Assembly (NCBI RefSeq): GCF_018889955.1
Contig: NZ_CP076545.1
Span: forward strand, 1,116,001 to 1,180,000
Length of the DNA: 64,000 bases
Source of the DNA: Collinsella sp. zg1085
Lineage (GTDB): Bacteria > Actinomycetota > Coriobacteriia > Coriobacteriales > Coriobacteriaceae
Direction of reading: 5' to 3'
The notes under the pieces were generated by a model. It made no database searches and was not told the DNA's origin. It saw nothing but the letters and a program-made list of their open reading frames with translations. Shown here piece after piece: positions 2,840 through 30,652 of the stretch. Numbering within the stretch: position 1 is the first letter of the stretch; each line of letters opens with the position of its first letter. The position numbers and the translations under genes are program-made.

Positions 2840-4042
2840 CTAGTGCTTGCCTGTCTCCTGCTCAAGACGCTCCATCTCTGCTAGTTGCGCGGGCGTAAGT
2901 TTGCGATAATGCATGCATCCAAACACAATCACAGCAATACAAATAACAATACCAATAATAAACTTACTCTCGATGCTACTGCCAAAAGGCGTGCTCACCG
3001 CCTCAAAAAACAAAGGAGACAAAGCCATACCCGCATTAATGCCCGCCATGCCAATAGCAAGGTTGAAGGCGCGTCCTTCCTTGGCACTATTACCGGCCGC
3101 AAAGTTTCCTTCAAGCGGCAGGAAAGTTTCCTTGCCAAGCGACAGCAAAAAGCCCGCCACACATACCAACGCAAAGCCCGGAGCTAGAAGTGTGAGCACC
3201 AATCCAAGCAAGCTCACCGTCCAGGTGAGCGGCATGGCAAGATTCTTAAACCTGCTAAAAAGGCTACCAACTACAAGCCCTGCGGGTATGCCAGCTAAAC
3301 TCACCACCTGTGTTGCTGCAGCTGCCTCAGCTACACCGCCCAATCCACGCGAGGCAATAATGAGCGATACGTTGCTGCTAAAGAGCTGAAATACCAGGAT
3401 AAAAACAAAGCTTACCAGCGTAATGATACGCACCTCGCGGGGCATGTTTGCAAACACATTCACCTGGCGCTGAGGCTCAAGCTCTCCTTTTGGCAAACAG
3501 ATAATCTCAATAATAATGAAGGGAATCATGGCATAAAAAGCCATATAAGACTGAGTCCAGCTCTCGGCTCCCAAAAAGCCTGATAAGCCGACCCAAAGCA
3601 CACCGCCTAAAGCTACAAAGGTGGAGTAGATGCCCATAACAAAACCGCGCTGCTTACCCTCAAAATAATCAGCAATCAAAGCATCTGAAGAATTTTGTAG
3701 CGCTCCAATACCTACGCCAATAAGCGCTGAGCCCACCAGCAACTCAACCAAGCTTGAGTGCAAAAAATAATAGACTGACAATCCTGCTACTGTTAGCAAA
3801 CAATGTCCGGCAATAGTCGTAATTTTTTTGGAGATGTGTTGCGCCAACAATGATGACACCAACATGGCAGATAGAGCCATAAACAGTGGAATCACGCCAA
3901 TAACCATCTGAACGAGCGCGATGTTTTCATCAGGAAACGAGGCAGCGATTTGTGCCAAGATAGGTACCGGCACCAACATGCCCATAATCGTCATGGCAGC
4001 AGCATAAATGCCCACCAAATACCGTTTCTTTTCTGTACTCAT
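2840..4042 (-). CDS. MFS transporter (module 1)
   Basis: Twelve-helix major facilitator superfamily protein, 400 residues, with a normal N-terminus and an AAGGAA ribosome site. It is the last gene of module 1, 147 bp behind the kinase gene; a strong hairpin (4120-4158) in that gap may lower or separate its expression. Because it follows an acyl-phosphate kinase, import of the substrate or export of the acid product is a reasonable guess. The closest MFS subfamily is not recognisable to me, and direction and substrate are unknown. Confidence 0.85.
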   Translation of the reverse strand: MSTEKKRYLVGIYAAAMTIMGMLVPVPILAQIAASFPDENIALVQMVIGVIPLFMALSAMLVSSLLAQHISKKITTIAGHCLLTVAGLSVYYFLHSSLVELLVGSALIGVGIGALQNSSDALIADYFEGKQRGFVMGIYSTFVALGGVLWVGLSGFLGAESWTQSYMAFYAMIPFIIIEIICLPKGELEPQRQVNVFANMPREVRIITLVSFVFILVFQLFSSNVSLIIASRGLGGVAEAAAATQVVSLAGIPAGLVVGSLFSRFKNLAMPLTWTVSLLGLVLTLLAPGFALVCVAGFLLSLGKETFLPLEGNFAAGNSAKEGRAFNLAIGMAGINAGMALSPLFFEAVSTPFGSSIESKFIIGIVICIAVIVFGCMHYRKLTPAQLAEMERLEQETGKH

Positions 4043-4119
4043 ATTATTTGTTCCTTTTCTGCTTCAACATAAATAAGCCCTATATATATGCATAGGCGCT
4101 CAAAACGCACTAAACAATA

Positions 4120-4158
4120 ACGGCCAGCAACTCAAGTACCCCTGAGTCTGCTGACCGT
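4120..4158 (-). terminator. Hairpin between kinase and MFS genes of module 1
   Basis: Arms ACGGCCAGCAACTCA and TGAGTCTGCTGACCGT pair with small bulges around an 8-nt loop. Read on the minus strand it is followed by TTATTG, so it could be a partial terminator or an mRNA-stabilising hairpin. Confidence 0.6.
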
Positions 4159-4189
4159 AGAGCTCTACGCGCTTATGTACGCGCCCACC

Positions 4190-5308
4190 TTATGCATTAT
4201 CAAAACCTTGAAACGCCGGAATACCCGAATATGTGCGCAGCGGCTCAACGCCCTCTAACACACGAATAGCACCTGCAGCCATAGCTTCAAGCTCAAATTC
4301 ACCGGGGTAGGCAGTGATAGGTGCAATCCAGGCACAACGCCGCTCAAGCCCCTCAAGCAGCTCGGTGCTATGCACCATACCGCCACCTAGCAAAATGCCA
4401 TCTACCTGACCCTCAAGCACACAGGCCATAGCGCCTATCCATTTTGCAATCTGATACAACATGGCTTCCCACGCACGACGAGCCGCACGGTCGCCGGCAT
4501 GCATGCGCGCACGCACTTCGCGCGCGTCGCTGGTATCAAGCAAATCAACAAAGCCGCCATTTTTCATGCAACGAGCACGCAGCTCAGCAGCAGAGATGCC
4601 CGCATCAACAAGCGAGGCAATCTCGGTTACCGGAATGCTTCCGCAACGCGTTGGTGTCATAGGGCCTTCGCCGCCCACAATATCGTTGCCATCTATCATG
4701 CGTCCGTGTTTGTGAGCAGAAATACTAATGCCACCGCCAATGTGGCAAACCACAAAGTTGCAGTCTTCGTATCGCTTGCCCAGCTGAGCAGCATGCCTAA
4801 TTGCCGTCTCTTTGAGATTAAGCGCGTGAAGATGCACATGCCGGTATACGCCAGCGAGCCCCGTCATACGAGCTAGCTCACAAAGCTCATCGGTGTCGGG
4901 TGGGTTTACCACAAAAGCCGGACGACCGCCCGCCTCTTCTGCAAAGGCATAGGCCAGCTGGCTTCCCAGCTGCGCTGGATGCTGAATACCATTTGCCCCC
5001 ACCTTTGCATGGCTGAGCAACAGCTCATCAACCTTATAGGTACCACCCTCAACAGGCACTAATCCACCGCCGCGCCCCACAAAAGCATCAATGCTTTCAA
5101 GCTCAACACCGTGTTCGCGCAAAAGTTCAAGCACCATATCACGCCGGTAACCAAGCTGATCGTTCATGGTCTCAAAGTCCGCAAGCACCTGTGCATCATG
5201 GTCGATGGTTTGCGCAAAGAGCTCATGTGTGCCTTCAAAAAGCCCAATTTTTGTGGAGGTAGAGCCCGGATTGATAGCCAAAACTCTCACAAGCTTCTCA
5301 GTGCTCAT
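4190..5308 (-). CDS. Butyrate-kinase-type acyl kinase (module 1)
   Basis: Acetokinase-superfamily kinase of the butyrate kinase type, 372 residues. It would transfer phosphate from a short-chain acyl phosphate to ADP, giving carboxylate and ATP. Visible signs are NPGSTSTK at residues 13-20, the GRGGGLVPVEGGTY segment, HIGGGIS, and a C-terminal ILLGGG segment; the acetate kinase signature is absent. The start is fixed by AGGAGG, which lies inside the last codons of the preceding pta-like gene. Only three bases separate the two genes, so translation is probably coupled. The chain length it prefers is unknown. A second copy with the same length is at 23479-24597. Confidence 0.88.
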   Translation of the reverse strand: MSTEKLVRVLAINPGSTSTKIGLFEGTHELFAQTIDHDAQVLADFETMNDQLGYRRDMVLELLREHGVELESIDAFVGRGGGLVPVEGGTYKVDELLLSHAKVGANGIQHPAQLGSQLAYAFAEEAGGRPAFVVNPPDTDELCELARMTGLAGVYRHVHLHALNLKETAIRHAAQLGKRYEDCNFVVCHIGGGISISAHKHGRMIDGNDIVGGEGPMTPTRCGSIPVTEIASLVDAGISAAELRARCMKNGGFVDLLDTSDAREVRARMHAGDRAARRAWEAMLYQIAKWIGAMACVLEGQVDGILLGGGMVHSTELLEGLERRCAWIAPITAYPGEFELEAMAAGAIRVLEGVEPLRTYSGIPAFQGFDNA

Positions 5309-5311
5309 ACG

Positions 5312-6319
5312 CTACTCCTCCTTGAGCGCAGCAGCACGCACGCAGCTCATAGCAACATTGCCAACAATTTCTTCTACACCGGCTGAGCGCGAACAATCAC
5401 ACACAATTTTATTGAAGCCCTGCAGCATAGGACCATAGGCTTCTGCCTGCGCAAACTGTTGTACCAATTTGACCGCAATGTTACCAACGTTTAAATCTGG
5501 CCAGATGAGCAAATTTGCCTGCCCAGCCACATCGCTTTCGCGCAACACCTTGCGCGCGGCAGTGCGTGGGTTAATAGCGCTATCAAGCTGGAACTCGCCA
5601 TCAATCTTTAGGTCAGGGCGGGCACTTCGAGCAATTTCGAGCGCTTCAACAACTTTTTCAACCAAAGGACCGGCACCGCTGCCGCATGTGCTATAAGAAA
5701 GCATGGCACAACGCGGCTCCCAGCCGGTAAGCGCATGCAAGGTATCGCAGGCAGAAATAGCAATAGAAGCTAGCTGGGTGGCGGTAGGGTTTTGACACAC
5801 CGCACTATCACCAAAGCCTAAATAAGCGCCTTCGCTTCCCTCAAAGCCAGGAATATCAAAGATGCCCATGCTTGAGATGGTCTCGATACCAGGAGCTAAG
5901 CCAACGATGCTTTGACCAGCAACAATAACATCTTCGGTGCTGGCGGTAATACCTGCAAAGCTCACGTCAACCTCATCGACTGCCTGCATAATGAGTGAGC
6001 GCTCAAGCGGCTTTGCAAGACGACGGCGCACGCCCTTTTCTTTATAGCGACAGCTCGGCAGCTCCAAAAAACGCTGGAGCAGCTCTTCGGTGGCAGTTTC
6101 GTCGGCAATATCAGCAAGCTCAACCATTGAGAGGTCAACGTCGCAGTCCTTGGCAACACGTTGCAACTCGTCAGTGTTTCCCACCAGCACACAATGCGCC
6201 AAATCGCGCTTAACAATCTCGCCCACAGCACGCATCATGGTTGGGTCAGTAGCCTCCGAAAATGCCACGCGCTGAGGCGCTGCTTTTGCGCGCTCAAACA
6301 TGCTATCCATTAAGCTCAT
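5312..6319 (-). CDS. Pta-type phosphotransacylase (module 1)
   Basis: Phosphate acetyl/butyryl-transferase family enzyme, 335 residues. It would swap an acyl group between a thioester and phosphate. The C-terminal half is closer to Pta than to Ptb, with SYSTCGSG (208-215), DGEFQLDSAI (240-249), VAGQANLLIWPDLN (264-277) and a GFNKIVCDCSRS segment (301-312). The ATG at 6319 follows AAAGGA at 7 nt; an upstream in-frame start would overlap the acyl carrier protein gene. Family members normally use CoA thioesters. Its position directly behind an acyl carrier protein gene raises the possibility that acyl-ACP is used, which is inference. The partner is at 25661-26659. Confidence 0.85.
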   Translation of the reverse strand: MSLMDSMFERAKAAPQRVAFSEATDPTMMRAVGEIVKRDLAHCVLVGNTDELQRVAKDCDVDLSMVELADIADETATEELLQRFLELPSCRYKEKGVRRRLAKPLERSLIMQAVDEVDVSFAGITASTEDVIVAGQSIVGLAPGIETISSMGIFDIPGFEGSEGAYLGFGDSAVCQNPTATQLASIAISACDTLHALTGWEPRCAMLSYSTCGSGAGPLVEKVVEALEIARSARPDLKIDGEFQLDSAINPRTAARKVLRESDVAGQANLLIWPDLNVGNIAVKLVQQFAQAEAYGPMLQGFNKIVCDCSRSAGVEEIVGNVAMSCVRAAALKEE

Positions 6320-6347
6320 AGCAAAATCCTTTATCTCAAAACACGTC

Positions 6348-6584
6348 CTAGAGCTCGTCTTCAACCCGCTCAATAAGCTCTTGCAGGCTCTTCATCTTCA
6401 TAATTTCATGAATGGTAATTTCAACATCAAGCTCATTCTCAAGGGTTGAGGTAAGTGCAATCATTTTCATGCTGCCGCCGCCCAGCTCATCAAAGCTGGT
6501 TTCTGGCGAAAGCTCTGCCACGTCAACACCATAGGCAGCTGCGGTAACCTCTAATACCTGCTCAGTAAGTTCTTGTGAAGCCAT
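6348..6584 (-). CDS. Acyl carrier protein 1 (module 1)
   Basis: Small acidic carrier protein of 78 residues, beginning MASQELTE; the start is set by GAAAGGA 8 nt upstream. The helix-II phosphopantetheine site reads GGGSMKM, with Ser38 aligned to the attachment serine. The Asp that precedes it in fatty-acid ACPs (DSL) is Gly here. The length and the following LxxELDVEI segment fit the ACP fold. It sits 28 bp before the pta-like gene and 90 bp behind the DUF35 gene, and not in a fatty-acid synthesis cluster, so a dedicated role in this pathway is likely. It could also be a D-alanyl-type or generic carrier. Confidence 0.85.
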   Translation of the reverse strand: MASQELTEQVLEVTAAAYGVDVAELSPETSFDELGGGSMKMIALTSTLENELDVEITIHEIMKMKSLQELIERVEDEL

Positions 6585-6674
6585 AACTACATTCCTTTCA
6601 AAACGTTTGTAAAAATCTGCGGGCGCAGAAAAAATCTGTCTGAACACGCGCCCATCTGTTCCTAAATGAGTTCT

Positions 6675-7094
6675 CTAATCAAGCTCAAAACAGAGCTGAT
6701 GCCAACCTTCACGCTCGACCACACGCGGATGCACCCCAATTATCTCCCCTGCCTGAATGCGTGCGTTAATCTCTGCGCGCTGCTTTTTGCCAGCTCCAAA
6801 CACCACAAAGGTATAGATTGGCCCCTCATCAAGCTGAACAGCACCATAGCCATATTTGCCCTCAGCCTTGAGATAGGGTTTGTCATTTTGCACACCAGGC
6901 GTAATAAACGACAACAAGTGCCCATGACCTGTCAGCTCAACCCATTCGGTCTTTAAGCCACCGCACGAATTGCACATAAGATGCGGGGGAAACTCAATAG
7001 CGCCGCACTCAGGACACTTGCGTCCATAATAGTGACCCTCTGCTACGCCGTCATAAAACTTTTTAACAATTGGCTCAATACGCTCTTTTTCCAT
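6675..7094 (-). CDS. DUF35 Zn-ribbon / OB-fold protein
   Basis: Protein of 139 residues with an N-terminal rubredoxin-like zinc ribbon (Cys27, Cys30, Cys41, Cys44) and a C-terminal OB-fold (about 50-135). Such proteins form complexes with thiolase-like enzymes; known examples are the archaeal acetoacetyl-CoA thiolase/HMG-CoA synthase complex and PhlB of diacetylphloroglucinol synthesis, where they bind the acyl carrier. The gene starts 11 bp behind the thiolase stop with an AGGAGG site, so the two are almost certainly partners. Its presence argues for C-C bond making or breaking on a thioester. Confidence 0.88.
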   Translation of the reverse strand: MEKERIEPIVKKFYDGVAEGHYYGRKCPECGAIEFPPHLMCNSCGGLKTEWVELTGHGHLLSFITPGVQNDKPYLKAEGKYGYGAVQLDEGPIYTFVVFGAGKKQRAEINARIQAGEIIGVHPRVVEREGWHQLCFELD

Positions 7095-7105
7095 GGCTTT
7101 TCCTC

Positions 7106-8386
7106 CTAGTCAACAGTCCGCAGAATCTGGCAACGAATATTTTGACCGCCGCCAAAACCACGCAAGAAGGTTGTCTTGGGGAGTCTCTTCACCTGCGTTG
7201 CGCCTGCCTGACCACGCATCTGCTTTACTGCGTCATAAATATCCGCCAAGCCTGATGCACCATGCGCATGACCAAAATTACAACGACCGCCATGTGGATT
7301 TACTGGCTTATCACCCTCAAACGACATACGACCGTCGCGGGCATACTGCCAAGCCTCGCCACGCGGAATGTAGCCCGCTTCCTCAGGAGCACAAATATCG
7401 CCACCCATAAAGAAGTCGTTCACATACATCAAATCAATCTCGTCAGGCGATACCTGTGTAAGCTCATATACCTGCGCTGTACCATCACGGGTGCCCTGAT
7501 ACTCGTTAAGCAGAGTTGCCCCCTCATAAGCCGCAGCTCCGGTACCCAAAACCTCAATTGCAGGCAGTCCGAGTGCCTTAGCTTTTTCGGTTGGCATAAG
7601 AATCGCTGCAGCCGCGCCGTCGCACTTTGTTTCAAAACCAGAGACGCGCAGGTATTGCGTGACCTTAGGGTTCATCATTGAATGCAGATATTCATCGGCG
7701 TTTGTCATGCCGTTTTCGCGGGCAATCTCATCAAAGCTTTTGTTATAAAAACCAAGCGGATTAAGTACTGCTGCACGGCGCAAATCTTGTGCCAGCTTGA
7801 TGAGCGCACCATCAATATCCTCATCTGATACGCCATAGTCGAGAACATATTTGTTAATCCAGTTATCAAATGAGATGCCAAAAGCGCTATCAAGCGGACG
7901 ACCATAAGCGCGATCATACACAAAGCCAATTGAGGGCAGCATGACCTCAAGGGGGAAATCCTTGCGCATATGCGCGGGAGCGTTATCAACAGGCAAAGTA
8001 GCCGCCAAATCAACCGCGCCCGTTAAAACGGTCTCGTAGGTTCCCGATGCAATAGCCATAACAGCCTGCTCAATAGAAACATAGCCGGTACAGCATGCCT
8101 CAGAATGATGAACCGATGCTTTTCCGCGCATGCCAATCCAATCTGCCACCTGCATGTTGGGAGTTAGCGATGCGCTAATCATAAATGGGTTGGCAGACCC
8201 ATGAAAAAAGTAATCAATATCGCGCGGTGCAAGCCCGCAGTCTTCCATAGCCTCAAGCGCTGCGTAAGCAAAGGCCTCGCCCTCGCCGAGCCCCTGCGTC
8301 TGAGGATCATCTTCAAAATTGGTAAAGGGCGTACAACCAACGCCAACAATCGACACGCTGCGCGCGTCCTTGCCCAACTTCACCAC
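7106..8386 (-). CDS. Thiolase-superfamily enzyme, SCP-x / lipid-transfer-like
   Basis: Thiolase-fold enzyme, 426 residues. The GTG at 8386 is chosen because AAAGGAG precedes it by 9 nt; an in-frame ATG 39 bases upstream has no such site. The nucleophile is probably Cys98 in SEACCTG. A C-terminal GHAHGASG (about 372-379) matches the catalytic His loop. The second cysteine of biosynthetic thiolases (CxGGG) is replaced by a GFGGGQ segment (about 410-415), as in synthase-like or DUF35-associated relatives. It may cleave a beta-keto thioester or a related C-C bond and hand the acyl group on. First gene of module 1, behind two inverted repeats that may be operators. Confidence 0.82.
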   Translation of the reverse strand: MVKLGKDARSVSIVGVGCTPFTNFEDDPQTQGLGEGEAFAYAALEAMEDCGLAPRDIDYFFHGSANPFMISASLTPNMQVADWIGMRGKASVHHSEACCTGYVSIEQAVMAIASGTYETVLTGAVDLAATLPVDNAPAHMRKDFPLEVMLPSIGFVYDRAYGRPLDSAFGISFDNWINKYVLDYGVSDEDIDGALIKLAQDLRRAAVLNPLGFYNKSFDEIARENGMTNADEYLHSMMNPKVTQYLRVSGFETKCDGAAAAILMPTEKAKALGLPAIEVLGTGAAAYEGATLLNEYQGTRDGTAQVYELTQVSPDEIDLMYVNDFFMGGDICAPEEAGYIPRGEAWQYARDGRMSFEGDKPVNPHGGRCNFGHAHGASGLADIYDAVKQMRGQAGATQVKRLPKTTFLRGFGGGQNIRCQILRTVD

Positions 8387-8551
8387 AGCAAACCACTCCT
8401 TTCTTATGCGATGCCAAAGTGACATCTACACATAGCTCTACATGGGCATCTTTGCACCCATATAGAAAGCTCAGCGTTCACTGCAGTGTTTGAACTTTAT
8501 GATGTAATCATAATAAGAAGCAAGCATTAAGAACAGAACAGGAGGCGTGCG

Positions 8552-8578
8552 GCTATCTATCAAACTGATTTAGATAGC
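8552..8578. promoter_or_regulatory. Inverted repeat in the module 1 leader
   Basis: Perfect 8-bp arms GCTATCTA (8552-8559) and TAGATAGC (8571-8578) around 11 bp. It lies in the 350-bp gap between tetR and the thiolase gene and is a candidate binding site. Confidence 0.55.
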
Positions 8579-8598
8579 GCGTAATTGTCTATGATAGC

Positions 8599-8623
8599 GA
8601 GACAGTTTTGGACAAAATGTCTC
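8599..8623. promoter_or_regulatory. Probable TetR operator of module 1
   Basis: GAGACA-G-TTTTG-GA-CAAAA-TGTCTC is a near-perfect 25-bp palindrome with one unpaired base. Size and symmetry fit a TetR-family operator, and the tetR gene lies immediately upstream (8737-9354). The rest of 8387-8736 is AT-rich with no gene. Confidence 0.65.
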
Positions 8624-8736
8624 AGTGTGAGGTGTTATATATTAAAAACATGTTAACCAAGGCAACTGTGCGATTAGCCACGATATTAGGCGCGATGAGT
8701 GCTGGTTGCTAGTTACAATTCCTTGCGTGAGCTGCC

Positions 8737-9354
8737 CTATTCCAGCTCAAACTCAGGTGCGCATGGCAGCTTATTTCCGCCTTCGGTATTCACAAAAAAG
8801 TAGGCATAATACATACGACACAACATGGCCGCCGCGGTTTTGGGGGATATGTCTGAGCGCTCAGAGAGCCAATACTTTACAAAACTATGGTGTCCACCAA
8901 CCATAAATACCAAATACAGGTCCTGATACTCCTGAATACCTGGTATGGTTTTCACTCGCTCGCGCAAATAGTCATACATAAACAAGGTGGCTTTATGCAA
9001 AAACTGAGGGTCGCCGTGCGGGCCAGTAAGCAATAGCACCTCATCCCGATATTCAAAGAGGGTTTCCATGCGCTGTATCATCGAAAACGTAGGCTCAAGC
9101 TGCGCTTGTGTAAAGCGCACCTTAAGGGCAACTTCATTTATATCTGCTAACAACTCAAGCAGCTGGTCTTCAAATACCTTAACCGCCGCATCAACAGAAT
9201 TAAAATGGCGATAAAAGGTAGAACGCGCAATACCCGCATAATGAGCAACATCATCAACCGTGATATGTGGAATATCCTTTGTCTGCATGACATGAAAGAT
9301 GCCTTTCATGATGCTTGTTTTTGTATCATCTTCGCGCGATATTTCTAAAGACAT
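8737..9354 (-). CDS. TetR-family transcriptional regulator
   Basis: Regulator of 205 residues. The N-terminal helix-turn-helix is clear at about 31-51 (ITVDDVAHYAGIARSTFYRHF is the recognition region), and the C-terminal part should be the ligand-binding dimer domain. The start has an AAGGAA site. It is co-directional with module 1 and directly upstream of it, so it probably represses that operon, and possibly itself, in response to a substrate or thioester. The ligand is unknown. Confidence 0.88.
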   Translation of the reverse strand: MSLEISREDDTKTSIMKGIFHVMQTKDIPHITVDDVAHYAGIARSTFYRHFNSVDAAVKVFEDQLLELLADINEVALKVRFTQAQLEPTFSMIQRMETLFEYRDEVLLLTGPHGDPQFLHKATLFMYDYLRERVKTIPGIQEYQDLYLVFMVGGHHSFVKYWLSERSDISPKTAAAMLCRMYYAYFFVNTEGGNKLPCAPEFELE

Positions 9355-9571
9355 AGCGTTCCTTCACCCAGCAACTCAGCATGCTCATTATATCAAGTTA
9401 TGTTTTTGGTGCTTGTTGTATAAGGTTCCATGAATTGCGAACAACGTGCATAGCCAGTATTTCAACACCGGTAGCAGCAATTATATGTTTCATTGGCAAA
9501 ACATACAGATAAACAATTAACCAATAATATAAAAAGTCATCCAATGTGCATCAAATGACTTGAGTAGGTGG

Positions 9572-9645
9572 TAGCCCGTACCGGATTCGAACCGGTGATC
9601 TCCGCCTTGAGAGGGCGGCGTCCTGAACCGCTAGACGAACGGGCC
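9572..9645 (-). tRNA. tRNA-Glu (CTC), copy 1
   Basis: Cloverleaf on the minus strand with acceptor GGCCCGT / ACGGGCT, anticodon stem CCGCC / GGCGG with loop CTCTCAA (anticodon CTC), and TTCGAAT in the T loop. The 3' CCA is encoded (9569-9571). Confidence 0.95.
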
Positions 9646-9683
9646 ATATGTTGAGGGCACAGCGCACCCTGAGAAAGCAGTGG

Positions 9684-9757
9684 TAGCCCGTACCGGATTC
9701 GAACCGGTGATCTCCGCCTTGAGAGGGCGGCGTCCTGAACCGCTAGACGAACGGGCC
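9684..9757 (-). tRNA. tRNA-Glu (CTC), copy 2
   Basis: Identical in sequence to the copy at 9572-9645, including the encoded CCA (9681-9683). The two are 38 bp apart and probably co-transcribed. Confidence 0.95.
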
Positions 9758-9783
9758 ACATACTAAGGAGAGGCAGACATTGG

Positions 9784-9854
9784 CTGGGATGGAGGGAGTC
9801 GAACCCCCATTGACGGAACCAGAATCCGCTGTCCTGCCATTAGACGACATCCCA
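9784..9854 (-). tRNA. tRNA-Gln (CTG)
   Basis: Minus-strand cloverleaf with acceptor TGGGATG / CATCCCA, anticodon loop TTCTGGT (anticodon CTG), T loop TTCGACT, and encoded CCA at 9781-9783. It would be read first, followed by the two Glu copies. Confidence 0.93.
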
Positions 9855-10077
9855 ATTGATGTGTCCGCGCTCCTCAGCGCAAGCATGTATATTACGGGAC
9901 AGTTTGTTTTGGCGCAAGTCCTAATTTATGCGAATTGCCATGAATCTCACAGTTTTACCTTCATATTCGGCTAGCTGCTGTAGAAGTACCTGCGCTTGAT
10001 GTGGTTGCGCGTGTAGACTCGTGCATCGTCAACGTGGTACGCATGGAAAGCTCATACCCCATCACAGCGGCAAAGCC

Positions 10078-21575: not shown

Positions 21576-22022
21576 CTAATGGGTGTCAAAGCCTTGAGCA
21601 AGTGCCATCGCTATAGCCATATCGGCTTCATGCGTTAGAGAGAGAAGCACTTCTGCAACACCCACGTCGTGCAGAAGTGCTTGTAGTTCTTTTGTTCCCT
21701 CAAATACCGGCTCACCACTTGCGCGGTCATAGCTTGTCACATCACGCAGGTCAAAACCGGCTGGTGTACGGGGAGCTACCGCCTTAAATACCGCCTCTTT
21801 AATCGCAAACCGACCGGCAAGATAGGTACTGCCCCGTCGCCCACGCGCACAGGCATCACTCAGCTCTCGAGCAGAAAAAGTCCGACTCAAAAATGGGTCA
21901 AGCTTAAGCGCATCAAGACCTCGCTCAAGGTCTTGTGCTTCAAAGCGCGACCAATATTTATCGATGTCGGATATACTCACCGAATCAATGCCAATGCCTA
22001 AAATCATGTCAGCAACACCCAC
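21576..22022 (-). CDS. acpS: Holo-ACP synthase
   Basis: Transfers 4'-phosphopantetheine from CoA to the serine of carrier proteins; 148 residues from a GTG, or 143 from an internal ATG (22007). Motifs are ILGIGIDSV near the start and RFAIKEAVFKA in the middle, with Mg-binding Asp and Glu respectively. It begins 33 bp behind the MFS gene of module 2 in the same direction, so it can be co-transcribed with that operon's acyl carrier protein. It may also be the cell's general AcpS. The ribosome site is weak, consistent with coupling to the gene upstream. Confidence 0.9.
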   Translation of the reverse strand: MGVADMILGIGIDSVSISDIDKYWSRFEAQDLERGLDALKLDPFLSRTFSARELSDACARGRRGSTYLAGRFAIKEAVFKAVAPRTPAGFDLRDVTSYDRASGEPVFEGTKELQALLHDVGVAEVLLSLTHEADMAIAMALAQGFDTH

Positions 22023-22055: not shown

Positions 22056-23378
22056 CTATGCCGTATGCACACGCCGCCTTAAAGCATACACGCCTAATAC
22101 CCAACATGCTGCCATAACCACAAGGCTGAGTACAAACATCCAAATATAGCCATGGGGAAGCTCACAAATCCATGCCCAAAATACTGCTGCTACCGCCCCC
22201 ATAAGAGAGCCCACCATAGAAATACGCGCATACACATCGGTATAAGAAGCTCCTCCAAACACCGAGCGCGTCAGAAGAGGTGTTTGTACCGTTGTGCAGG
22301 AATACACAAGACCAAACAGCAAAGAGCCGCCCAAGAGTGCAAAGGGAAGCTCAGGAGCAAGCATCATAATCAGTACACCCACCATGCCAGCTCCAATGCC
22401 AAGCGAGAGGCTGCCCACAATACTGCGGTCGCTCAAGCCACCAAGCGCAACCTTACCAAAGGCCTGTCCAGCCATACAAGCAGCAGCAACAATACCGCTC
22501 ACGCCCGCAGCAGCGCCCACGCCCCCATCGGCCAAAAAGCTCGTGTATGAGGGTAAGAACTGATACACCGTCTGGTTGAGCGTAATAAGACCACAAAAGC
22601 ACGCCAAGGCAAGAAATGCAGGGCTTTTGTACAAGCTCGAATGACTGTCAGGCGCTGGCGCATCTTCTGAGCTTTGTGACGTGGAGCTACCAGCCGATGT
22701 TTGCTCAGACGCTCTAGCTGCTGCAGGTGCCTCACCTAAACGGTTGAGCCCAAGCTCTTCGGGGCGCGCACGTACCAAGCATGCAATAAGGGGCAAAGCA
22801 CCAATACAAATAATAAGACCAAAGACCAGATATGCTAGGCGCCAGCCTTCGGGTCCGGTAGCGATAAGTGCTGAGCCTAGAGGATTAAAAACCACACCAC
22901 CAATACCGGTAAACGCCATGCAAAGACCTACAAAAAAGCCTACACGCTCCGCGCACCACGCGTTAATAAGAGTGGGTACTGCAAGATATAACAGCGGAGC
23001 CACGCCTGCACCAATAAAGGCGCTTACCACGTAGAACTGCCACAATTCTTGGAGCTGCGAAAATACAATAAGCCCCACTCCACATAAGGCGCATGCCACA
23101 CTTAACACCACGCGAATATTTCCATGGCTCATTAAACGCCCAGCAAAAGGCAACGACAGCATCATAGCAATGTTAGCGATGCTAAAGTACAGCGAAAATG
23201 CTGCTTTTGAAACGCCGAAGGCGGCGCTTACCGGTGTGAAGAAAATACCCGCACAAGAATATACCAGCGCACAAGGAACCCCGGTCATAATAATGCCAGT
23301 TAGCACAATAATATAGGCATAGTGAAAGCGTGGCTTACCAGCAGAAGATGCCTGCACCTGAGAACTCACTCGTTTCAT
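22056..23378 (-). CDS. MFS transporter, oxalate/formate-antiporter-like (module 2)
   Basis: 440 residues from the ATG at 23378, 12 hydrophobic segments. An FHYAYIIVLTGIIMTGV start, RVGFFVGLCMAFTGIGG and a Ser/Ala-rich central loop (about 205-240) resemble OFA/monocarboxylate MFS carriers. It follows the Buk-type kinase by 100 bp and precedes acpS by 33 bp. Export or exchange of a carboxylic acid would fit the pathway, but this is inference. It is only distantly like the module 1 transporter. Confidence 0.82.
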   Translation of the reverse strand: MKRVSSQVQASSAGKPRFHYAYIIVLTGIIMTGVPCALVYSCAGIFFTPVSAAFGVSKAAFSLYFSIANIAMMLSLPFAGRLMSHGNIRVVLSVACALCGVGLIVFSQLQELWQFYVVSAFIGAGVAPLLYLAVPTLINAWCAERVGFFVGLCMAFTGIGGVVFNPLGSALIATGPEGWRLAYLVFGLIICIGALPLIACLVRARPEELGLNRLGEAPAAARASEQTSAGSSTSQSSEDAPAPDSHSSLYKSPAFLALACFCGLITLNQTVYQFLPSYTSFLADGGVGAAAGVSGIVAAACMAGQAFGKVALGGLSDRSIVGSLSLGIGAGMVGVLIMMLAPELPFALLGGSLLFGLVYSCTTVQTPLLTRSVFGGASYTDVYARISMVGSLMGAVAAVFWAWICELPHGYIWMFVLSLVVMAACWVLGVYALRRRVHTA

Positions 23379-23478
23379 CTCATTTCTAACTTTGACGTAC
23401 GAACACACAGGATGAGCAGAGCGCGCCTAACAGCTATCGAAACAGCTACCACGCTCAACTCATCGCAGCCCTATTCAG

Positions 23479-24597
23479 CTAGCACGCTGCAAAAGCTCCC
23501 GGCATATCAAAACCGTCCCATGAAGGCTCACCGCTAAATTGCATGACGGCCTCTTCACCCTCAAGGGCGCGAATAGCGCCGCTTGCCAACGCATCCATCT
23601 CAAAGTCACCTGCATAGACCTCAAGAGGAGCAATCCAACCCACGCGCTCACGGACATAAGCAACAAAACCAGGGTCATGGCTCACGCCGCCGGTAAGCAC
23701 AATTGCGTCAACCTGACCTTTAAGTACGGCCGCAAAGCCACCAATGGCTTTTGCCACCTGATAGGCCATAGCTTCATATACCAGCTTAGCCCAGCTATCC
23801 CCCGCTTCAATGCGCGCAATAAGCTCACGCGTATCATCGGTGCCCGTAAGACCAAGGAGTCCCCCGCGCTTGCCCACAACCGCACTCATATCTTGCTTAG
23901 ACAGCTTGCCCGCAAATGCCATATCAATCAGCGGCTTAGCCGGAACATCGCCTGAACGATTAGGAGCAAAAGGACCCGAGCCTTCCAATACATCATTAGC
24001 ATCTACCATACGACCCTGCTCATGCGCTGCAACCGATAAACCGCCGCCCACATGAGCAACAATGATATTTGCCTGCGCGTAGGACTTACCTTGTGCCTGA
24101 GCTGCGCGCAGGGCACACTCTTTTTGATTAAGGCAGTGCACGTGGCTCTTGCGATACACCCCCGGATAGCCGGTAATACGCGCCACATCGGCAAGCTCGT
24201 CGGTATCAGGCTGGTTCACTGCATAGGCAGGCTTGCCGTGCAGCTGAGCGAGAGCAAACAACAATGGAGCACCCAAAACTGCCGGGTGATTAACACCGGA
24301 ATTCATCACGTGGTTGCATACCTTCTGGTCAATTGCAAAAATGCCGCCCACCGTGGGACCCATAGCGCCACAATAGCCTGAGAACGCATCGATGTCTTCT
24401 AAAGCAACACCTTGCGCCTCAAGCGTTGTAAGAATGGTTTGATAGCGATAATCAAACTGGTCAACAGCAAAGTCAAATGCTGCAAGCTCATCTGCTGGGT
24501 GCGTTATATTGCAACGAAAAACTGCCTCTGAATCTCGAAATACTGCCACCTTGGTTGAAGTTGAACCAGGAGATAGCGTCAAAATGGTATGCGTCAC
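23479..24597 (-). CDS. Butyrate-kinase-type acyl kinase (module 2)
   Basis: 372 residues from a GTG at 24597, which has AAAGGA at 6 nt; an earlier GTG overlaps that site. Family motifs are SPGSTSTK (9-16), HVGGGLSVAAH, a DGSGPFAPNRSGD-like substrate loop (LEGSGPFAPNRSG) and IVLTGGVSHD. It has the same length as the module 1 kinase but differs throughout, so the duplication is old or the two were acquired separately. Expected reaction: acyl phosphate plus ADP to carboxylate plus ATP. Confidence 0.88.
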   Translation of the reverse strand: MTHTILTLSPGSTSTKVAVFRDSEAVFRCNITHPADELAAFDFAVDQFDYRYQTILTTLEAQGVALEDIDAFSGYCGAMGPTVGGIFAIDQKVCNHVMNSGVNHPAVLGAPLLFALAQLHGKPAYAVNQPDTDELADVARITGYPGVYRKSHVHCLNQKECALRAAQAQGKSYAQANIIVAHVGGGLSVAAHEQGRMVDANDVLEGSGPFAPNRSGDVPAKPLIDMAFAGKLSKQDMSAVVGKRGGLLGLTGTDDTRELIARIEAGDSWAKLVYEAMAYQVAKAIGGFAAVLKGQVDAIVLTGGVSHDPGFVAYVRERVGWIAPLEVYAGDFEMDALASGAIRALEGEEAVMQFSGEPSWDGFDMPGAFAAC

Positions 24598-24623
24598 ATC
24601 AATTCCTTTCACGTGCTAAACAC

Positions 24624-24655
24624 AGCACACCGCACGAGCAATCGCACGGTGTGCT
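24624..24655 (-). terminator. Intercistronic hairpin before the kinase gene
   Basis: AGCACACCG (24624-24632) pairs with CGGTGTGCT (24647-24655). It lies in the 104-bp gap between the second membrane protein gene and the kinase. There is no T tract, so mRNA processing or stability is as likely as termination. Confidence 0.5.
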
Positions 24656-24701
24656 CATATCTTGGCTCTATACGTTTACCTCTATACGGCAAATGGGATA
24701 T

Positions 24702-25127
24702 TTATTGCTGTTTTTGAGCCTGCGCGCGCATCAGCGCACCCATAACAACATCAATAACCACCACAGTAACATAGCTAACAGCCATCAAAATTGGGAAGGT
24801 TCCCAGCCATGCCTCAACAAAGTGATTGCCACCCGTTGCCAACGCCGTCATGCTTGCCGACATAATAATCATGTAGATTAAATCGGTAACCAACAGCTCA
24901 AATGCATGTGCCAGCATCGACTCACCCAAGGGCTGAGCTGCACGCTTTGCAAGATCTGGCACCGGAATTACCAGCTGAATGAGAACGTTGACACAAAAGG
25001 CGCTTGAAGTACCCATAAACCAAGGAATAAAGCTTATCGGTGTTCCGCTCACTAGCATAGCTGTGGTATTGATGATGCAAGCAATCACCAAATTGATTAC
25101 CAACGTTACTGCACTCCACCTTACCAT
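24702..25127 (-). CDS. Four-helix membrane protein A of module 2
   Basis: 141 residues from the ATG at 25127 (GGGGAG at 6 nt). Four hydrophobic segments with short loops. The first two helices share LVxACIINTTAMLVS and a GTxSAFCxNVLxQLVxPVP pattern with its neighbour. The layout resembles DUF2798-type small membrane proteins, which have no firm function. Its place between the phosphotransacylase and the kinase suggests work with the pathway, for example substrate movement. Confidence 0.7.
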   Translation of the reverse strand: MVRWSAVTLVINLVIACIINTTAMLVSGTPISFIPWFMGTSSAFCVNVLIQLVIPVPDLAKRAAQPLGESMLAHAFELLVTDLIYMIIMSASMTALATGGNHFVEAWLGTFPILMAVSYVTVVVIDVVMGALMRAQAQKQQ

Positions 25128-25156
25128 ATACAACTCCCCTCTCGAGTCGATTAAAC

Positions 25157-25214
25157 AAGACAAGCCCTACCTTATGGGCTTGTCTTACCTATCAATACGG
25201 ATACCGCCCGTATT
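25157..25214 (-). terminator. Two hairpins between the membrane protein genes
   Basis: Perfect 11-bp stem AAGACAAGCCC / GGGCTTGTCTT (25157-25167, 25176-25186), then AATACGG / CCGTATT (25194-25200, 25208-25214). Stacked stems in an 89-bp gap inside the operon may set different RNA levels for the upstream and downstream halves. Confidence 0.6.
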
Positions 25215-25216
25215 GC

Positions 25217-25633
25217 TTACTCCTCATGTTTGTGAGCTAGCCTTTGCGCCGCTGCGTCGCAGCCAAGAGTTGCAACATATCCAACCAGCAGCAAGGTGAT
25301 ATAGCTTTGCCACCAGAAATCAAAGATATTCACACCCCCTGTTGCTAGATATGCCATCGATAACGAAATACAACTCACATAACAGGCATTAACCACAAAC
25401 AACTCAGCTAGATGCTGCACGACAGCTGATTTAAGCGGAGCGGTGATTCGCGCCGCAAAAGCCGGTACCGGCAGCACGAGCTGTAATAAAACATTGATAC
25501 AAAAGGCACTTGCCGTACCAGGAACCCAAGATAAGACAGAGAGCGGAGCTGCGCTAACAAGCATCGCCGTTGTATTGATAATGCATGCAAGCACTAAATC
25601 AATTACTAGAGTTGATGTGTTCCACCTTGTCAT
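25217..25633 (-). CDS. Four-helix membrane protein B of module 2
   Basis: 138 residues from the ATG at 25633 (AGGGG at 6 nt). Paralogue of the protein at 24702-25127: same four-helix layout and the same ACIINTTAMLVS segment. Probable tandem duplication; the two may form a heteromer, as small paired membrane proteins often do. It starts 27 bp behind the pta-like gene. No enzymatic residues are evident. Confidence 0.7.
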   Translation of the reverse strand: MTRWNTSTLVIDLVLACIINTTAMLVSAAPLSVLSWVPGTASAFCINVLLQLVLPVPAFAARITAPLKSAVVQHLAELFVVNACYVSCISLSMAYLATGGVNIFDFWWQSYITLLLVGYVATLGCDAAAQRLAHKHEE

Positions 25634-25660
25634 ATGCAACCCCTCTCTCGCGTCAACAAT

Positions 25661-26659
25661 CTAGCGGGCTGCTAACACCAGCATGGCAATATCGCCGACG
25701 ATTTCATCTACCGTGGCACCGCGCGACGAATCGGCAACGGGGCGCTTAAATCCAGAAAGCGTATGACCATAGGCCGAGCCACCTGCAAAGCGCTGAATCA
25801 TTTTGACAGCAATATTTGCTGCATTAAGGTCTGGGAATACCAGCACGTTAGCCTTACCAGCAACCTCGCTTGCGCGGTTGAGCTTCTTTGCAGCAACAGC
25901 AGAATCTAATGCGGTATCCAGCTGAAATTCTCCGTCGGCAAAGATGTCAGGGCGACGCTCATGCACAAGCTGAACCGCCTCTTGCACGCGGTCAACCGAT
26001 GCGCCAGCTCCTGACCCCACGCTAGAGAAAGACAAGAAAGCAACGCGCGGTGTCCAGCCCATCATGGCCTGCACACTATCTGCTGCTGCAATGGCAATTG
26101 AAGCAAGCTCAGCAGCAGTTGGCTCAGGATTAAGACCGCAGTCGGTAAACGCGATAAGGTTTCCCTCTGGCCCTTCGAGATGAGGGGTGGTAACCAATGC
26201 CACAATGCTTGGTACATCAACCCCCTCAGCTAATCCAAGCATGGTAGATGCTGCCATGAGCACATCACCGGTGGTATTGGTGTGTCCACAAAAACTTGCG
26301 TCAACCTTGCCCATCTCTTCAAGCATGAGCGCATAGTGCATAGGGTCTTTTATCTTGCGACGAGAACCCTTAGCCGAGAGCAGACGCGGCGCAGCCTCCA
26401 TAAACGATGCGGCCAGCGCATCTGCTGCCGCCTCATCGGTGGTATCAATGAGTTCAAGGTCTGATACATCAACACCTGCAGAGGCAGCCGTCGCTCTAAC
26501 GACATCGGCTGGACTCACCAGCACCGGAATAGCAATGCCCAAGTCTGCAATCTTTCGAGCTGCTAACAAGGTGTTCTCAGCTTCGCACTCTGGTAGCGCA
26601 ACACGCTTTTTAGGTGCTTGTTGTGCCTCAGCAATCAACTGCTCAATTAGGGTATCCAT
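25661..26659 (-). CDS. Pta-type phosphotransacylase (module 2)
   Basis: 332 residues from the ATG at 26659; another ATG two codons earlier is too close to the AGAGGGG site. Pta-type features are SFSSVGSGAG (210-219), DGEFQLDTAL (242-251), EVAGKANVLVFPDLNAANIAVK (from 265) and a terminal SSRGATVDEIVGDIA. It starts 46 bp behind the second acyl carrier protein gene, the same order as in module 1. The expected product is an acyl phosphate for the Buk-type kinase downstream. Confidence 0.85.
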   Translation of the reverse strand: MDTLIEQLIAEAQQAPKKRVALPECEAENTLLAARKIADLGIAIPVLVSPADVVRATAASAGVDVSDLELIDTTDEAAADALAASFMEAAPRLLSAKGSRRKIKDPMHYALMLEEMGKVDASFCGHTNTTGDVLMAASTMLGLAEGVDVPSIVALVTTPHLEGPEGNLIAFTDCGLNPEPTAAELASIAIAAADSVQAMMGWTPRVAFLSFSSVGSGAGASVDRVQEAVQLVHERRPDIFADGEFQLDTALDSAVAAKKLNRASEVAGKANVLVFPDLNAANIAVKMIQRFAGGSAYGHTLSGFKRPVADSSRGATVDEIVGDIAMLVLAAR

Positions 26660-26705
26660 ACCCATAGCCCCTCTAATCAATGTCTATCAACGCGTCTTTT
26701 GACAA

Positions 26706-26957
26706 CTACATAGACAGCTTGTCATCAATAAACTGAGCGGCATCGGCAAAGGTTGCCATCTTGTTGAGCTCCATATACGGAACCTCAACCTCATACTCGT
26801 CCTCAAGTGCCGAGGCAAACTGAACAATATTTACTGACTTGGCATGAAGGTCATCGACAAACGAGGTTTTCTCAGAAAGCGTTGCTGCGTCAACACCAAA
26901 AATTTCTGCTGCCTTGTTCTTAAGGATGTCTACAACTTCTTCTTGAAACTCATTCAT
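26706..26957 (-). CDS. Acyl carrier protein 2 (module 2)
   Basis: 83 residues, acidic, with AAAGGAA upstream. The ACP pattern is FGVDAATLSEKTSFVDDL followed by HAKSVNIVQF; Ser41 aligns with the phosphopantetheine serine. The usual DSL triplet reads KSV, with a Lys where fatty-acid ACPs have Asp. It lies between the CocE-type hydrolase (51 bp upstream) and the pta-like gene (46 bp downstream). It is distinct from ACP 1, so each module seems to carry its own carrier. Confidence 0.87.
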   Translation of the reverse strand: MNEFQEEVVDILKNKAAEIFGVDAATLSEKTSFVDDLHAKSVNIVQFASALEDEYEVEVPYMELNKMATFADAAQFIDDKLSM

Positions 26958-27008
26958 GATAGTTCCTTTCGCATTAGTAAGAGTTCTCTACATATCCATC
27001 CATCGCAC

Positions 27009-28802
27009 TTAGCCACGATAGATATAATCACCAACCTGATATTTTGGCGGCACAACCGGAATCTGAAGGTACGAATCGTAGTCACCACCGGTATGGATAA
27101 CATGCATACCATCACCGTTGTCGGTTGCATGGTTCATATCGTTATCGTGGAACCACTCAGTCTTGATAAAACGACCAGCTACAACAACTGATAGCTGCTC
27201 GCCCTTATGCCAGATGCGTGAGTGTGGATACAGCTCAATATCAACCGGAACAATCTCTCCTGGCTTCATGCGCTCCTCGCCAGTGTGTGCATGTACCGGC
27301 TGAAAATCTGTTGCAAGTTTTGGATCAAGCTCGCGATGAGAGCAACGAAGGAAGCCCCATGCGCCACGGAAAGGAGCACCCATAACACGCAGAGGCACAT
27401 AGTTGCCCTCAGCGTCGAGCTTGATAATCCACGGGAAGAGATCCATATTGTCGTGACCACGGCATTCAACATGAAGATGCAGCTTCATAAAGCCGGTAAT
27501 CTCGGTATCCTCTTGGAACTGATAGGTAAAGCTTGTCGTATCTGTCTTGGGGTCATAAACCACCTCAGCAGGCGTAGCAACTGGCTCAGCTGAAGCGCCA
27601 CCATTGCTTGCATCAAGATAAATCTTGCGATACTCCGTGCGCTTAATGGGGAAGGTTTCCTCAGCGCGCTTTGATGCAAAGTCATAGTCATAAGCATCCA
27701 TAACATCAATGCGTACACGCGGCGTAAACTCCCAGCCGTTATTGATGTCCTTGAGATAGCGATCAAAGAATCGCTTCAAATCCTCAAGATTCTCTGGGTT
27801 ATAGCTATCAGGCCACTCAAAATCGCGGTGAGCACGCATCCACTTTTTAGGTGAGCGAATACGGCGGAAGCCCTCAAAAGCACCGCGCAGGTGATGATGC
27901 ACCCAGCCTGCTGTTACATAGGTTGGGATACGAATCTTATTCCAGTCAACAATCTTGTCTTTGTAATAGGCATTCATATAAGGATACTTAGCAATCATTG
28001 CGGTTGTATCCTCAATGTAGTTGTTAACCGCAAGCGCCTGAATAATGTGTGTCTCATAGTCAGGATTGGGAATGCCTCCGCAGAAATAGCTTTCGCGGTA
28101 GAGGTCGCCGGTGCCCTCCCAAGCAGCAAGGCAGGCAAGATGAGGTGGACGCTGAGCAGCAATGCGCCAGTGGCTCATGCATACACCTGAGTTACCCAGC
28201 ATGGTGGCCTTACCGTTGCACCAGTCTTGTGCGGTAACCCACTCAATAAAGTCGTAACCGTCCTCAGCGTCTTGGTGACCCCACAAATACACATCACCCT
28301 CAGAGTTGCCCACGCCGCGCGGGTCAACATTAGCAACTGCATAGCCATGGCGGCACCAATATCCCGGGTCTGGTGACTCAAACTTGGCATAGGTAGATAC
28401 CGTCTTAGGCGGAACACCCATCAACTGCCACGAATCCATACCTTCACTGGGATTTTTACCAAAAGGACCAAAGGCGCAAATAACAGGCACTTTTTCGGTG
28501 GTATTTGCCGGGCGATAAATATCGCAATAAATAGTTACTCCATCGCGGAGCACACATGCCTGGTCGCGCTCACAAATAACACCTGGAAGCTCTGTCATAT
28601 AGGTATGCGGCTGATACGGAGCGCAATAGCCCATGGTCGCAACCATCTCTCCATCGCCACCGTCACCACTCTCACGCAAACGGCGCTTAATCTCGTCAAG
28701 CTCCTCACGCGATTTACCAGGGTTACCCTTAGCAAAGGGAACCTCAAACTCCTCATCACCAAAGCGTATTGTTTTGGTAATACCTTGGTTGGGCTCAGCC
28801 AT
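27009..28802 (-). CDS. CocE/NonD-family alpha/beta hydrolase
   Basis: 597 residues, first gene of module 2, with AAAGGAG upstream. Alpha/beta-hydrolase domain (about 75-350) with nucleophile Ser205 in LGNSGVCM, RGVGNSEGD (162-170) and a helical cap; the C-terminal jelly-roll domain (about 370-590) is that of X-Pro dipeptidyl peptidase/CocE proteins. Likely catalytic His is His325. The Asp normally seen in the GWxD loop appears as His302 (GWVHHH). The N-terminus (1-60) has no signal peptide. Known members cleave esters, amides or peptides. Here it may release or transfer an acyl group that enters the ACP-Pta-Buk route; the substrate is unknown. Confidence 0.82.
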   Translation of the reverse strand: MAEPNQGITKTIRFGDEEFEVPFAKGNPGKSREELDEIKRRLRESGDGGDGEMVATMGYCAPYQPHTYMTELPGVICERDQACVLRDGVTIYCDIYRPANTTEKVPVICAFGPFGKNPSEGMDSWQLMGVPPKTVSTYAKFESPDPGYWCRHGYAVANVDPRGVGNSEGDVYLWGHQDAEDGYDFIEWVTAQDWCNGKATMLGNSGVCMSHWRIAAQRPPHLACLAAWEGTGDLYRESYFCGGIPNPDYETHIIQALAVNNYIEDTTAMIAKYPYMNAYYKDKIVDWNKIRIPTYVTAGWVHHHLRGAFEGFRRIRSPKKWMRAHRDFEWPDSYNPENLEDLKRFFDRYLKDINNGWEFTPRVRIDVMDAYDYDFASKRAEETFPIKRTEYRKIYLDASNGGASAEPVATPAEVVYDPKTDTTSFTYQFQEDTEITGFMKLHLHVECRGHDNMDLFPWIIKLDAEGNYVPLRVMGAPFRGAWGFLRCSHRELDPKLATDFQPVHAHTGEERMKPGEIVPVDIELYPHSRIWHKGEQLSVVVAGRFIKTEWFHDNDMNHATDNGDGMHVIHTGGDYDSYLQIPVVPPKYQVGDYIYRG

Positions 28803-29020
28803 ACGTGGCTCCTTTCACAACCTGTGCCCCATATTCTGGGCAAAATCCTTTATTTAATGGTCGATGAAATGCAAACATATGTCTTTGTACAAAATTCTAA
28901 TTATTTGTATTGAAGTGAGCTGCGAAGGTAGCTATGAGGCAAAGATGTTCAGCGGAGGCTCAGAATATATTGCACGATTTGCTATAATTTCCTGAGAAAA
29001 TATTGCGATTGGAAACGATT
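28803..29020. promoter_or_regulatory. Divergent promoter region of module 2 and its regulator
   Basis: 218 bp between two divergent genes. A TGC-TATAAT extended minus-10 box at 28983-28988 suits the rightward PucR-type gene. The rest is AT-rich. The PucR-type protein would be expected to bind here, but no clear palindrome stands out. Confidence 0.5.
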
Positions 29021-30652
29021 ATGAACCTTCAAGAGCTGTTAAACCAATTGGAATTTATTCCAAAAACCAATCTCTCTCAGCAGGCATTAGCGTACGAAAT
29101 TGCAGGCGTATACCTCTACACTCCCCACATGCACATTCAAGTACATGGCGAGCGTTTTATCTACTTTATTGAAGAGCGCAACATGGCAAAAGTTGATAGC
29201 GCATGTAGCAAGCATCATATCTGGTTTGTATTAACCGAGCACGCCTCCGCTCACGCGCACGCCACTCAGCTGCAAAGCTGTAGTGTTGCAGACCGAACGC
29301 GCTGGATTGATGCCTATACATGCTTTGTTAGTGAGTTTCAGCGCATTGCCGCCAAACACGAAATGCTGCTCGCACTCACCGCAGCTATAAATAACGGCGC
29401 AAGCCTTGAGCGCATAGCAAACGATGCAGCTGAAATTTTGGAAGGCCCTGTATCAATTCTTGATACATCGCTTGCTTTTCGTGCGCGCTCAAAAAGCTTT
29501 CTTGCCATGTTTGCTGGTCAAAAAGATGCTGAAGAGCAAATGATTCCCGAAAATGCGCTTCCGCTCATGCGCGCACGGGGCTTTGTCAACCCATGGAAAC
29601 CCACCGAACTTGCTATTTTTAGCTGGACGGGTGAGGACCAAAACCACTATACCAATCACTATGCCTCAGTGTTTAATCATGACGTGCTCGTGGGGTCGGT
29701 GAGTTACTTCACCAAAAATGAAGCTGCTCGACCGAGCCGCGTTGCACTTATTCCTGTTATCGCGCAGCTTGTAAGTATTGCCATGCAGCGCCAAAACAGC
29801 CACACGCTGAACAAAGGCTTGTACTACACGCATCTATTTCAGCAGCTTGAGGACAAAACCATCAGCATTGAGCCTGATGAAATAGCGCGGCGTTTAGTAT
29901 TTTATGGCTACCAGCTTAAACGCCATCTTCATGTGGTTGGGGTTGATATGCGAGCAAACTGGCTTCCTGCCGAGCGACTGCGCCCGCTTGCTGAGCAACT
30001 TCAAAGCTATATTCCACACAGCCTCTATGTTATACGTGATGACGCAATTCTTTTTTTGACCAGCCATGACACCTGGTATGAAGAAAGTGCGGCAGACCAG
30101 CCTGGTCTTGCAGAGCTAGCACAGCGCATGGGGCTGAGGCTAGGCATTTCGGCAAGCTTTACCGACATTCGAGAGCTTCCGGTTAAAATACGCGAGCTGC
30201 GGCGTGCTATAGAAATTGGTTTGCAGCGTGAACCTCAGCTTTTGGTGTGGCCGTATAGCAGGTTTCGCGTTGCAGATTTTGTATCTCGCATGAGCACGAG
30301 CGTTGATGCAGAATTCTTTTTGTATCCCCCGCTCATGCGCTTAATTATCCATGATGAAACACATGGCACGCAGCTCACCCAAACGCTTGCCTGTTACCTA
30401 GATGCTCACCAGCAAGTTGATACCGCCGCCGACCAGCTTTTTATCCACAAAAACACCCTCTACTATCGCCTCGCTCAAATAAAAGAAATCATGCAGGTCA
30501 ATCTGGGCGATGGCAAGGTAATTTGTCAGATTATTATTGGGCTTGAGCTCACGTGCCAGCAAGGACGTATCACGCTTACTTATCGTGAAAAAGCCTCTAC
30601 CAGCCAAGCACCTGCTGCATCTGTTGCTGCTCAATCAAAGACTCAAAACTAA
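29021..30652 (+). CDS. PucR-type transcriptional regulator
   Basis: 543 residues from the ATG at 29021 (GGAAA upstream). The last 60 residues form the PucR C-terminal helix-turn-helix (VDTAADQLFIHKNTLYYRLAQI), preceded by a GGDEF-like sensing domain typical of CdaR/PucR activators. It is divergent from module 2, so control of that operon is likely. Its 3' end overlaps the convergent phosphatase gene by 56 bp. Confidence 0.85.
   Translation: MNLQELLNQLEFIPKTNLSQQALAYEIAGVYLYTPHMHIQVHGERFIYFIEERNMAKVDSACSKHHIWFVLTEHASAHAHATQLQSCSVADRTRWIDAYTCFVSEFQRIAAKHEMLLALTAAINNGASLERIANDAAEILEGPVSILDTSLAFRARSKSFLAMFAGQKDAEEQMIPENALPLMRARGFVNPWKPTELAIFSWTGEDQNHYTNHYASVFNHDVLVGSVSYFTKNEAARPSRVALIPVIAQLVSIAMQRQNSHTLNKGLYYTHLFQQLEDKTISIEPDEIARRLVFYGYQLKRHLHVVGVDMRANWLPAERLRPLAEQLQSYIPHSLYVIRDDAILFLTSHDTWYEESAADQPGLAELAQRMGLRLGISASFTDIRELPVKIRELRRAIEIGLQREPQLLVWPYSRFRVADFVSRMSTSVDAEFFLYPPLMRLIIHDETHGTQLTQTLACYLDAHQQVDTAADQLFIHKNTLYYRLAQIKEIMQVNLGDGKVICQIIIGLELTCQQGRITLTYREKASTSQAPAASVAAQSKTQN

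Follow-up and report, generated by a model that had tools for sequence, protein, structure and literature searches.

ATP formation from thioesters by substrate-level phosphorylation is commonly presented as a matter of coenzyme A (CoA). A 64,000-nucleotide stretch of the Collinsella sp. zg1085 genome, hereafter the window, holds two operons in which a gene for an acyl carrier protein (ACP) accompanies genes for a Pta-family phosphotransacylase and a butyrate-kinase-type acyl kinase (Buk). These operons raise the question whether ATP may be formed there from acyl groups held on a carrier protein.

Gene content of the two modules and a proposed route

Open reading frames and family searches placed module A on the minus strand, from 9354 to 2840, in the order TetR, thiolase, DUF35/OB, ACP, Pta, Buk, MFS. 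The TetR-type regulator (8737–9354, PF00440/PF14278) has homologues in other loci of the module A kind, where they too are encoded ahead of the thiolase. The SCP-x-like thiolase (7106–8425, PF22691, E 1.9e-23), proposed as the acyl-cleaving first enzyme, has the benzoylsuccinyl-CoA thiolase subunit and PhlC among its sequence relatives; its proposed nucleophile, Cys111, was present in 22 of 22 aligned homologues and His386 in 21 of 22. Its partner is a DUF35/OB-fold Zn-ribbon protein (6675–7094, above the cut-off of PF12172), whose gene adjoins the thiolase gene in relatives too. The pair was assigned to the SCP-x-like thiolase and DUF35 class on the family match, the catalytic Cys and His and the adjacent DUF35 gene, the latter scoring below the PF01796 cut-off. 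There follow the ACP (6348–6584, PF00550, E 2.8e-13), with its attachment serine at Ser38, the Pta (5312–6319, PF01515, E 1.4e-85, 288 bits), a proposed acyl-ACP:phosphate acyltransferase, the Buk (4190–5308) and an MFS transporter (2840–4042, PF07690).

Module B, also on the minus strand, extends from 28802 to 21576 on the same kind of evidence, and a PucR-type regulator is encoded divergently from it (29003–30652, plus strand, PF13556/PF17853). Its first gene encodes a CocE/NonD (S15) alpha/beta hydrolase (27009–28802), proposed to load the acyl group; it scores 202 bits for TIGR00976 (cut-off 66.3), and Ser205 and His325 are conserved in 17 of 17 sequences. On our reading of the alignment, the Asp of cocaine esterase has no counterpart at the corresponding place. 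The ACP (26706–26957, PF00550, E 3e-7, attachment Ser conserved) and the Pta (25661–26680, PF01515, E 9.8e-84, 282 bits) are followed by two small uncharacterised proteins without Pfam match (a, 25217–25639; b, 24702–25163), the first of which has homologues in other module loci by tblastn. The Buk (23479–24612) and an MFS transporter (22056–23408, PF07690) come next. The last gene, which begins 33 bp after the MFS gene, encodes an AcpS-type phosphopantetheinyl transferase (PPTase), a second holo-ACP synthase (21576–22022, above the cut-offs of PF01648 and TIGR00556).

The original prediction of a common minus-strand order of acp, pta, buk and MFS genes was thus confirmed in both operons by frames and families, except that in module B the two small proteins separate pta from buk. 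It had overlooked the terminal PPTase gene, and it was right that each operon has a different first enzyme and regulator type (thiolase and TetR in A, CocE and PucR in B).

Both kinases are full-length members of the TIGR02707 butyrate kinases (376.8 bits in A, 381.5 bits in B, cut-off 289.1). The Ptas belong to PF01515, although their scores for the Pta equivalog TIGR00651, 241 and 251 bits, stay below its cut-off of 311.2. An identity as Ptb-type acyl-CoA enzymes was rejected, since they score 81.6 and 77 bits for TIGR02706 (cut-off 410.5) and branch apart from Ptb in the tree. Nor were they assigned to PlsX, as no TIGR00182 match was listed for them, whereas the genome's own PlsX scores 260.9 bits. 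In the whole genome (1,720,218 bases, one contig), three Pta family members and three acetate/butyrate kinases were found, namely a housekeeping Pta and AckA pair at 577–580 kb and the two module pairs.

We propose that each module is probably a CoA-independent unit of substrate-level phosphorylation, leading from acyl-ACP through acyl phosphate to ATP. The linked PPTase would turn the small ACP into its holo form. A module-specific first enzyme that forms an acyl-enzyme, the thiolase with DUF35 in A and CocE in B, would then cleave the substrate and load the ACP thiol; since Cys111 and His386 in one, and Ser205 and His325 in the other, are conserved, both can be expected to form acyl-enzymes. 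The Pta-family enzyme, which lacks the CoA-site arginines (see below), would use phosphate to release the acyl group from the ACP as acyl phosphate, leaving the ACP free. Finally, the Buk-type kinase would yield ATP and a carboxylic acid, and the MFS protein would carry the substrate or the product. In this scheme the use of acyl-ACP by the Pta, the loading of the ACP by the first enzyme, the direction towards ATP and the identity of the acyl group are inferred.

Linkage across relatives and the direction of the route

A survey of 398 genomes of the class Coriobacteriia revealed 71 with a butyrate-kinase match, for a total of about 113 matches. Stretches were fetched around a choice of these, and 69 loci, window included, hold a Buk gene. 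Within the fetched stretches, an ACP was present in 40 of the 46 Buk loci with a module-type Pta, but in none of the 23 others (Fisher test, p=4e-13), which rules out chance neighbourhood as the cause of the clustering. In one of the six module-type loci without ACP in the fetched stretch, an ACP gene lies about 8 kb off on the same contig. Many of the 23 other loci have an aldehyde dehydrogenase (c14, PF00171) beside a Ptb-type Pta and Buk, and no ACP. Such loci would correspond to the acyl-CoA arrangement, with a presumed CoA-acylating dehydrogenase.

The original prediction suggested looking for acp genes linked to pta- and buk-type genes in relatives, and the linkage indeed holds from one family to another and extends to Bacillota. 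When named genomes were scanned, the set also turned up in Lachnospiraceae, Oscillospiraceae and Bacilli. The ACP-Pta-Buk set recurs in Coriobacteriia and Bacillota behind a thiolase with DUF35, a CocE or an Abhydrolase_3 protein: when the class survey and the relatives from the scan were taken together, the nearest neighbour of the ACP was a thiolase/DUF35 gene in 30 cases, a CocE gene in 22 and an Abhydrolase_3 gene in three. In one locus the order is rearranged to TetR-Pta-Buk-thiolase-OB-ACP-MFS (L047), with the parts still together. Some Bacillota loci hold part of the set. Secundilactobacillus folii has Pta-ACP-thiolase-DUF35 with a PPTase-like gene, and Enterococcus raffinosus has ACP, AcpS and Pta at a contig end; no Buk was detected in either. 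In a Lachnospiraceae metagenome-assembled genome (MAG), a URO-D family protein replaces the usual first enzyme before ACP-Pta, and no Buk was found (L142:8333-11002). ACP proximity to pta alone is not diagnostic, as several Bacillota contigs pair a housekeeping-type pta and kinase with a nearby ACP; as a group, these Ptas keep the CoA-site arginines.

Two side observations concern the kinase genes. At L143:8869-12121, one Pta is flanked by two Buk-type genes in a single operon, and the Buk of L061 (G315:C107:13079-14128) contains one in-frame TAG.

Every step of the route is reversible in principle, and the modules could be run the opposite way: Buk would spend ATP on an imported acid, Pta would load the ACP, and the thiolase or CocE would pass the acyl group to an acceptor, in biosynthesis or detoxification, like a Friedel-Crafts acylase. 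Each module does include a transporter, and thiolase/DUF35 complexes of the PhlABC type acylate phenols (PMC12329534). However, several of the alternative first enzymes belong to hydrolase families, and no further synthetic enzymes were seen within the modules. Moreover, in two loci (L149:2739-12105 and L150:2628-12126) proteins of the FMN_red and FAD_binding_2 families and two Fe-S proteins, of which one binds flavin as well, are encoded directly before thiolase, DUF35, ACP, Pta and Buk, an arrangement that looks catabolic and may point to a reduction ahead of C-C cleavage. In other genomes, homologues of these proteins are likewise found close to modules. We therefore consider the opposite direction unlikely, although it is the alternative that fares best.

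For the ATP-forming direction, energetics differ with the first enzyme. A 1,3-dicarbonyl cleaved thiolytically would release enough energy for ATP. The cleavage of a simple alkyl ester falls short of this under standard conditions, so that CocE would need an activated substrate or low product concentrations. The linkage of CocE to ACP, and in one case their fusion, suggests acyl transfer to a thiol and not hydrolysis. The fusion is a single 717-aa open reading frame (L146:3768-5921) that runs from an ACP domain through an Ala/Pro-rich linker to CocE, and is followed by AcpS, Pta and Buk. Its frame is open throughout, and it is the sole such fusion noticed; as the sequence comes from a MAG, an assembly error is possible. 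In module B and its relatives, the esterase-family enzyme may transfer the acyl group of an ester to holo-ACP without hydrolysis, the bond energy being kept in acyl-ACP, then acyl phosphate and then ATP, so that the ester would be used phosphorolytically with no CoA involved, a tentative reading to which we give slightly less than an even chance.

The carrier protein, its PPTase and the lost CoA-site arginines

The two module ACPs of the window were classed as acyl carrier proteins on their PP-binding domain (PF00550) and attachment serine, a residue present in 43 of 43 module ACPs. In the organism's own family, a second PPTase was found in 7 of 7 genomes with an ACP module, versus 1 of 60 others (p=9e-9), and the two genomes with Buk but without ACP have one PPTase each. 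A weak second match (27 bits, G019:C15:390127-390501) marks the sole genome of the family having a second PPTase without a detected ACP-Buk module. Of 20 genomes surveyed, about 15 have the second PPTase gene no more than about 10 kb from a module, on our reading of the coordinates; in the window genome, the other PPTase gene is at 143 kb. Two reduced Bacilli MAGs (1.0–1.2 Mb, possibly incomplete) have one detected ACP, one PPTase and one Pta each, all in the module. These observations indirectly support the view that the module ACPs are meant to be modified to the holo form, by a dedicated PPTase.

Alignment to the reference enzyme MtPta revealed a difference at the CoA site, shared by the Ptas of modules A and B. 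Arginine was found in module Ptas at position R28 in at most 2 of 68 sequences, at R87 in 1 of 68 and at R133 in 0 of 68, versus 92, 91 and 78 of 93 comparison Ptas, respectively. In contrast, none of the 68 module Ptas has lost the catalytic Ser309 or Arg310, and the same is true of all comparison Ptas. R28 is reportedly a CoA-site arginine of MtPta, from the work of Iyer and Ferry in 2001. Mutations of R87 and R133 in MtPta mainly alter Km, and those of S309 and R310 kcat (PMC6461089), and work on PgPta indicated that the equivalents of R87 and R133 are not essential for catalysis. After the stretch where R87 is lost, module Ptas have a Lys that never varies and an Arg that almost never does, which could possibly contact the ACP. 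Since the module Ptas largely form one clade in the tree, the shared losses may represent one event. They are consistent with the use of ACP, and would fit another thiol carrier too.

The arginine losses also bear on a second alternative, already raised in the original prediction, in which the ACP serves the first enzyme only and the acyl group then goes to CoA, for an ordinary Pta-Buk couple to make ATP. The ACP is indeed nearest to the first enzyme, and in many CocE-type loci it sits with CocE while the Pta is kilobases off; the Pta lies within 500 bp of the ACP in 8 of 22 such loci. Yet the CoA-site arginines are gone from module Ptas and kept in comparison Ptas, none of the genes in either operon was recognised as encoding an ACP:CoA transacylase, and Ptb-Buk loci with an aldehyde dehydrogenase do without ACP. 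This alternative is thereby weakened, and we regard it as improbable.

A role in lipid synthesis, with short or branched acyl groups fed to fatty acid synthesis or phospholipids in a PlsX/Fak-like manner, is the least probable: PlsX, of related fold, does exchange acyl-ACP and acyl phosphate, but no part in lipid metabolism is apparent for the thiolase or CocE, the genes for PlsX and the ACP next to it lie elsewhere in the genome, and the ketoacyl-synthase C-domain PF02801 had no match at E<=0.001 in the whole window genome, despite the ACP beside plsX, nor was a FabF-type (PF02801) match found in the two Bacilli MAGs. Because of this missing match, type II fatty acid synthesis may be absent from the organism. 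Besides the ACP beside plsX, the genome encodes three carrier proteins, two in the modules and one PP-binding protein between dltB and dltD, in the position of dltC.

Taken together, linkage, attachment serine, PPTase, lost arginines and the ACP-free Ptb-Buk loci support, at the level of sequence, the original proposal that energy would be conserved from acyl-ACP rather than acyl-CoA.

Relation to known systems

The original prediction knew of no described route of this kind, and a search of open-access papers found no earlier description of ATP formation fed by acyl-ACP. Among the closest parallels are Ptb-Buk and Pta-AckA, which also lead from a thioester through acyl phosphate to ATP, the module Buks being TIGR02707 members. 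The modules differ from them by an ACP with its own PPTase, and by a Pta that is of the Pta type, not the Ptb type, and lacks R28, R87 and R133. PlsX with FakAB shares the exchange between acyl-ACP and acyl phosphate and a related fold, but PlsX serves lipid synthesis and not ATP formation, and the module enzymes belong to the PTA_PTB family. Protein C of glycine reductase converts a protein-bound acyl thioester to acetyl phosphate for ATP (PMC10298544). It resembles the modules in this respect, whereas its thioester is on the enzyme itself, without ACP or PPTase, and its acyl group comes from a selenoprotein reaction.

The first enzymes have known counterparts too. BbsAB, PhlBC and Sal/Ltp2 combine a thiolase-fold enzyme with a DUF35 partner and are sequence relatives of the module A pair; those with known substrates act on CoA thioesters or acyl phenols, whereas the module A pair is linked to ACP-Pta-Buk. 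Similarly, the module B CocE matches the family of the CocE/NonD hydrolases (cocaine esterase, S15), with Ser and His conserved, and differs in that module-type CocE is linked or fused to ACP.

The modules would thus represent a CoA-free variant of Pta-kinase energy conservation, and suggest that protein-held pantetheine is used instead of CoA in many gut anaerobes. A standard ACP-Pta-Buk adaptor would take acyl groups from different front-end enzymes. If so, this would explain why such genomes have additional carrier proteins and a second PPTase, and a Pta without R28, R87 and R133, together with ACP and Buk, would serve in Coriobacteriia and Bacillota as a genomic marker for a so far unassigned way of conserving energy. 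It would then become possible to find what the thiolase and CocE front ends act on.
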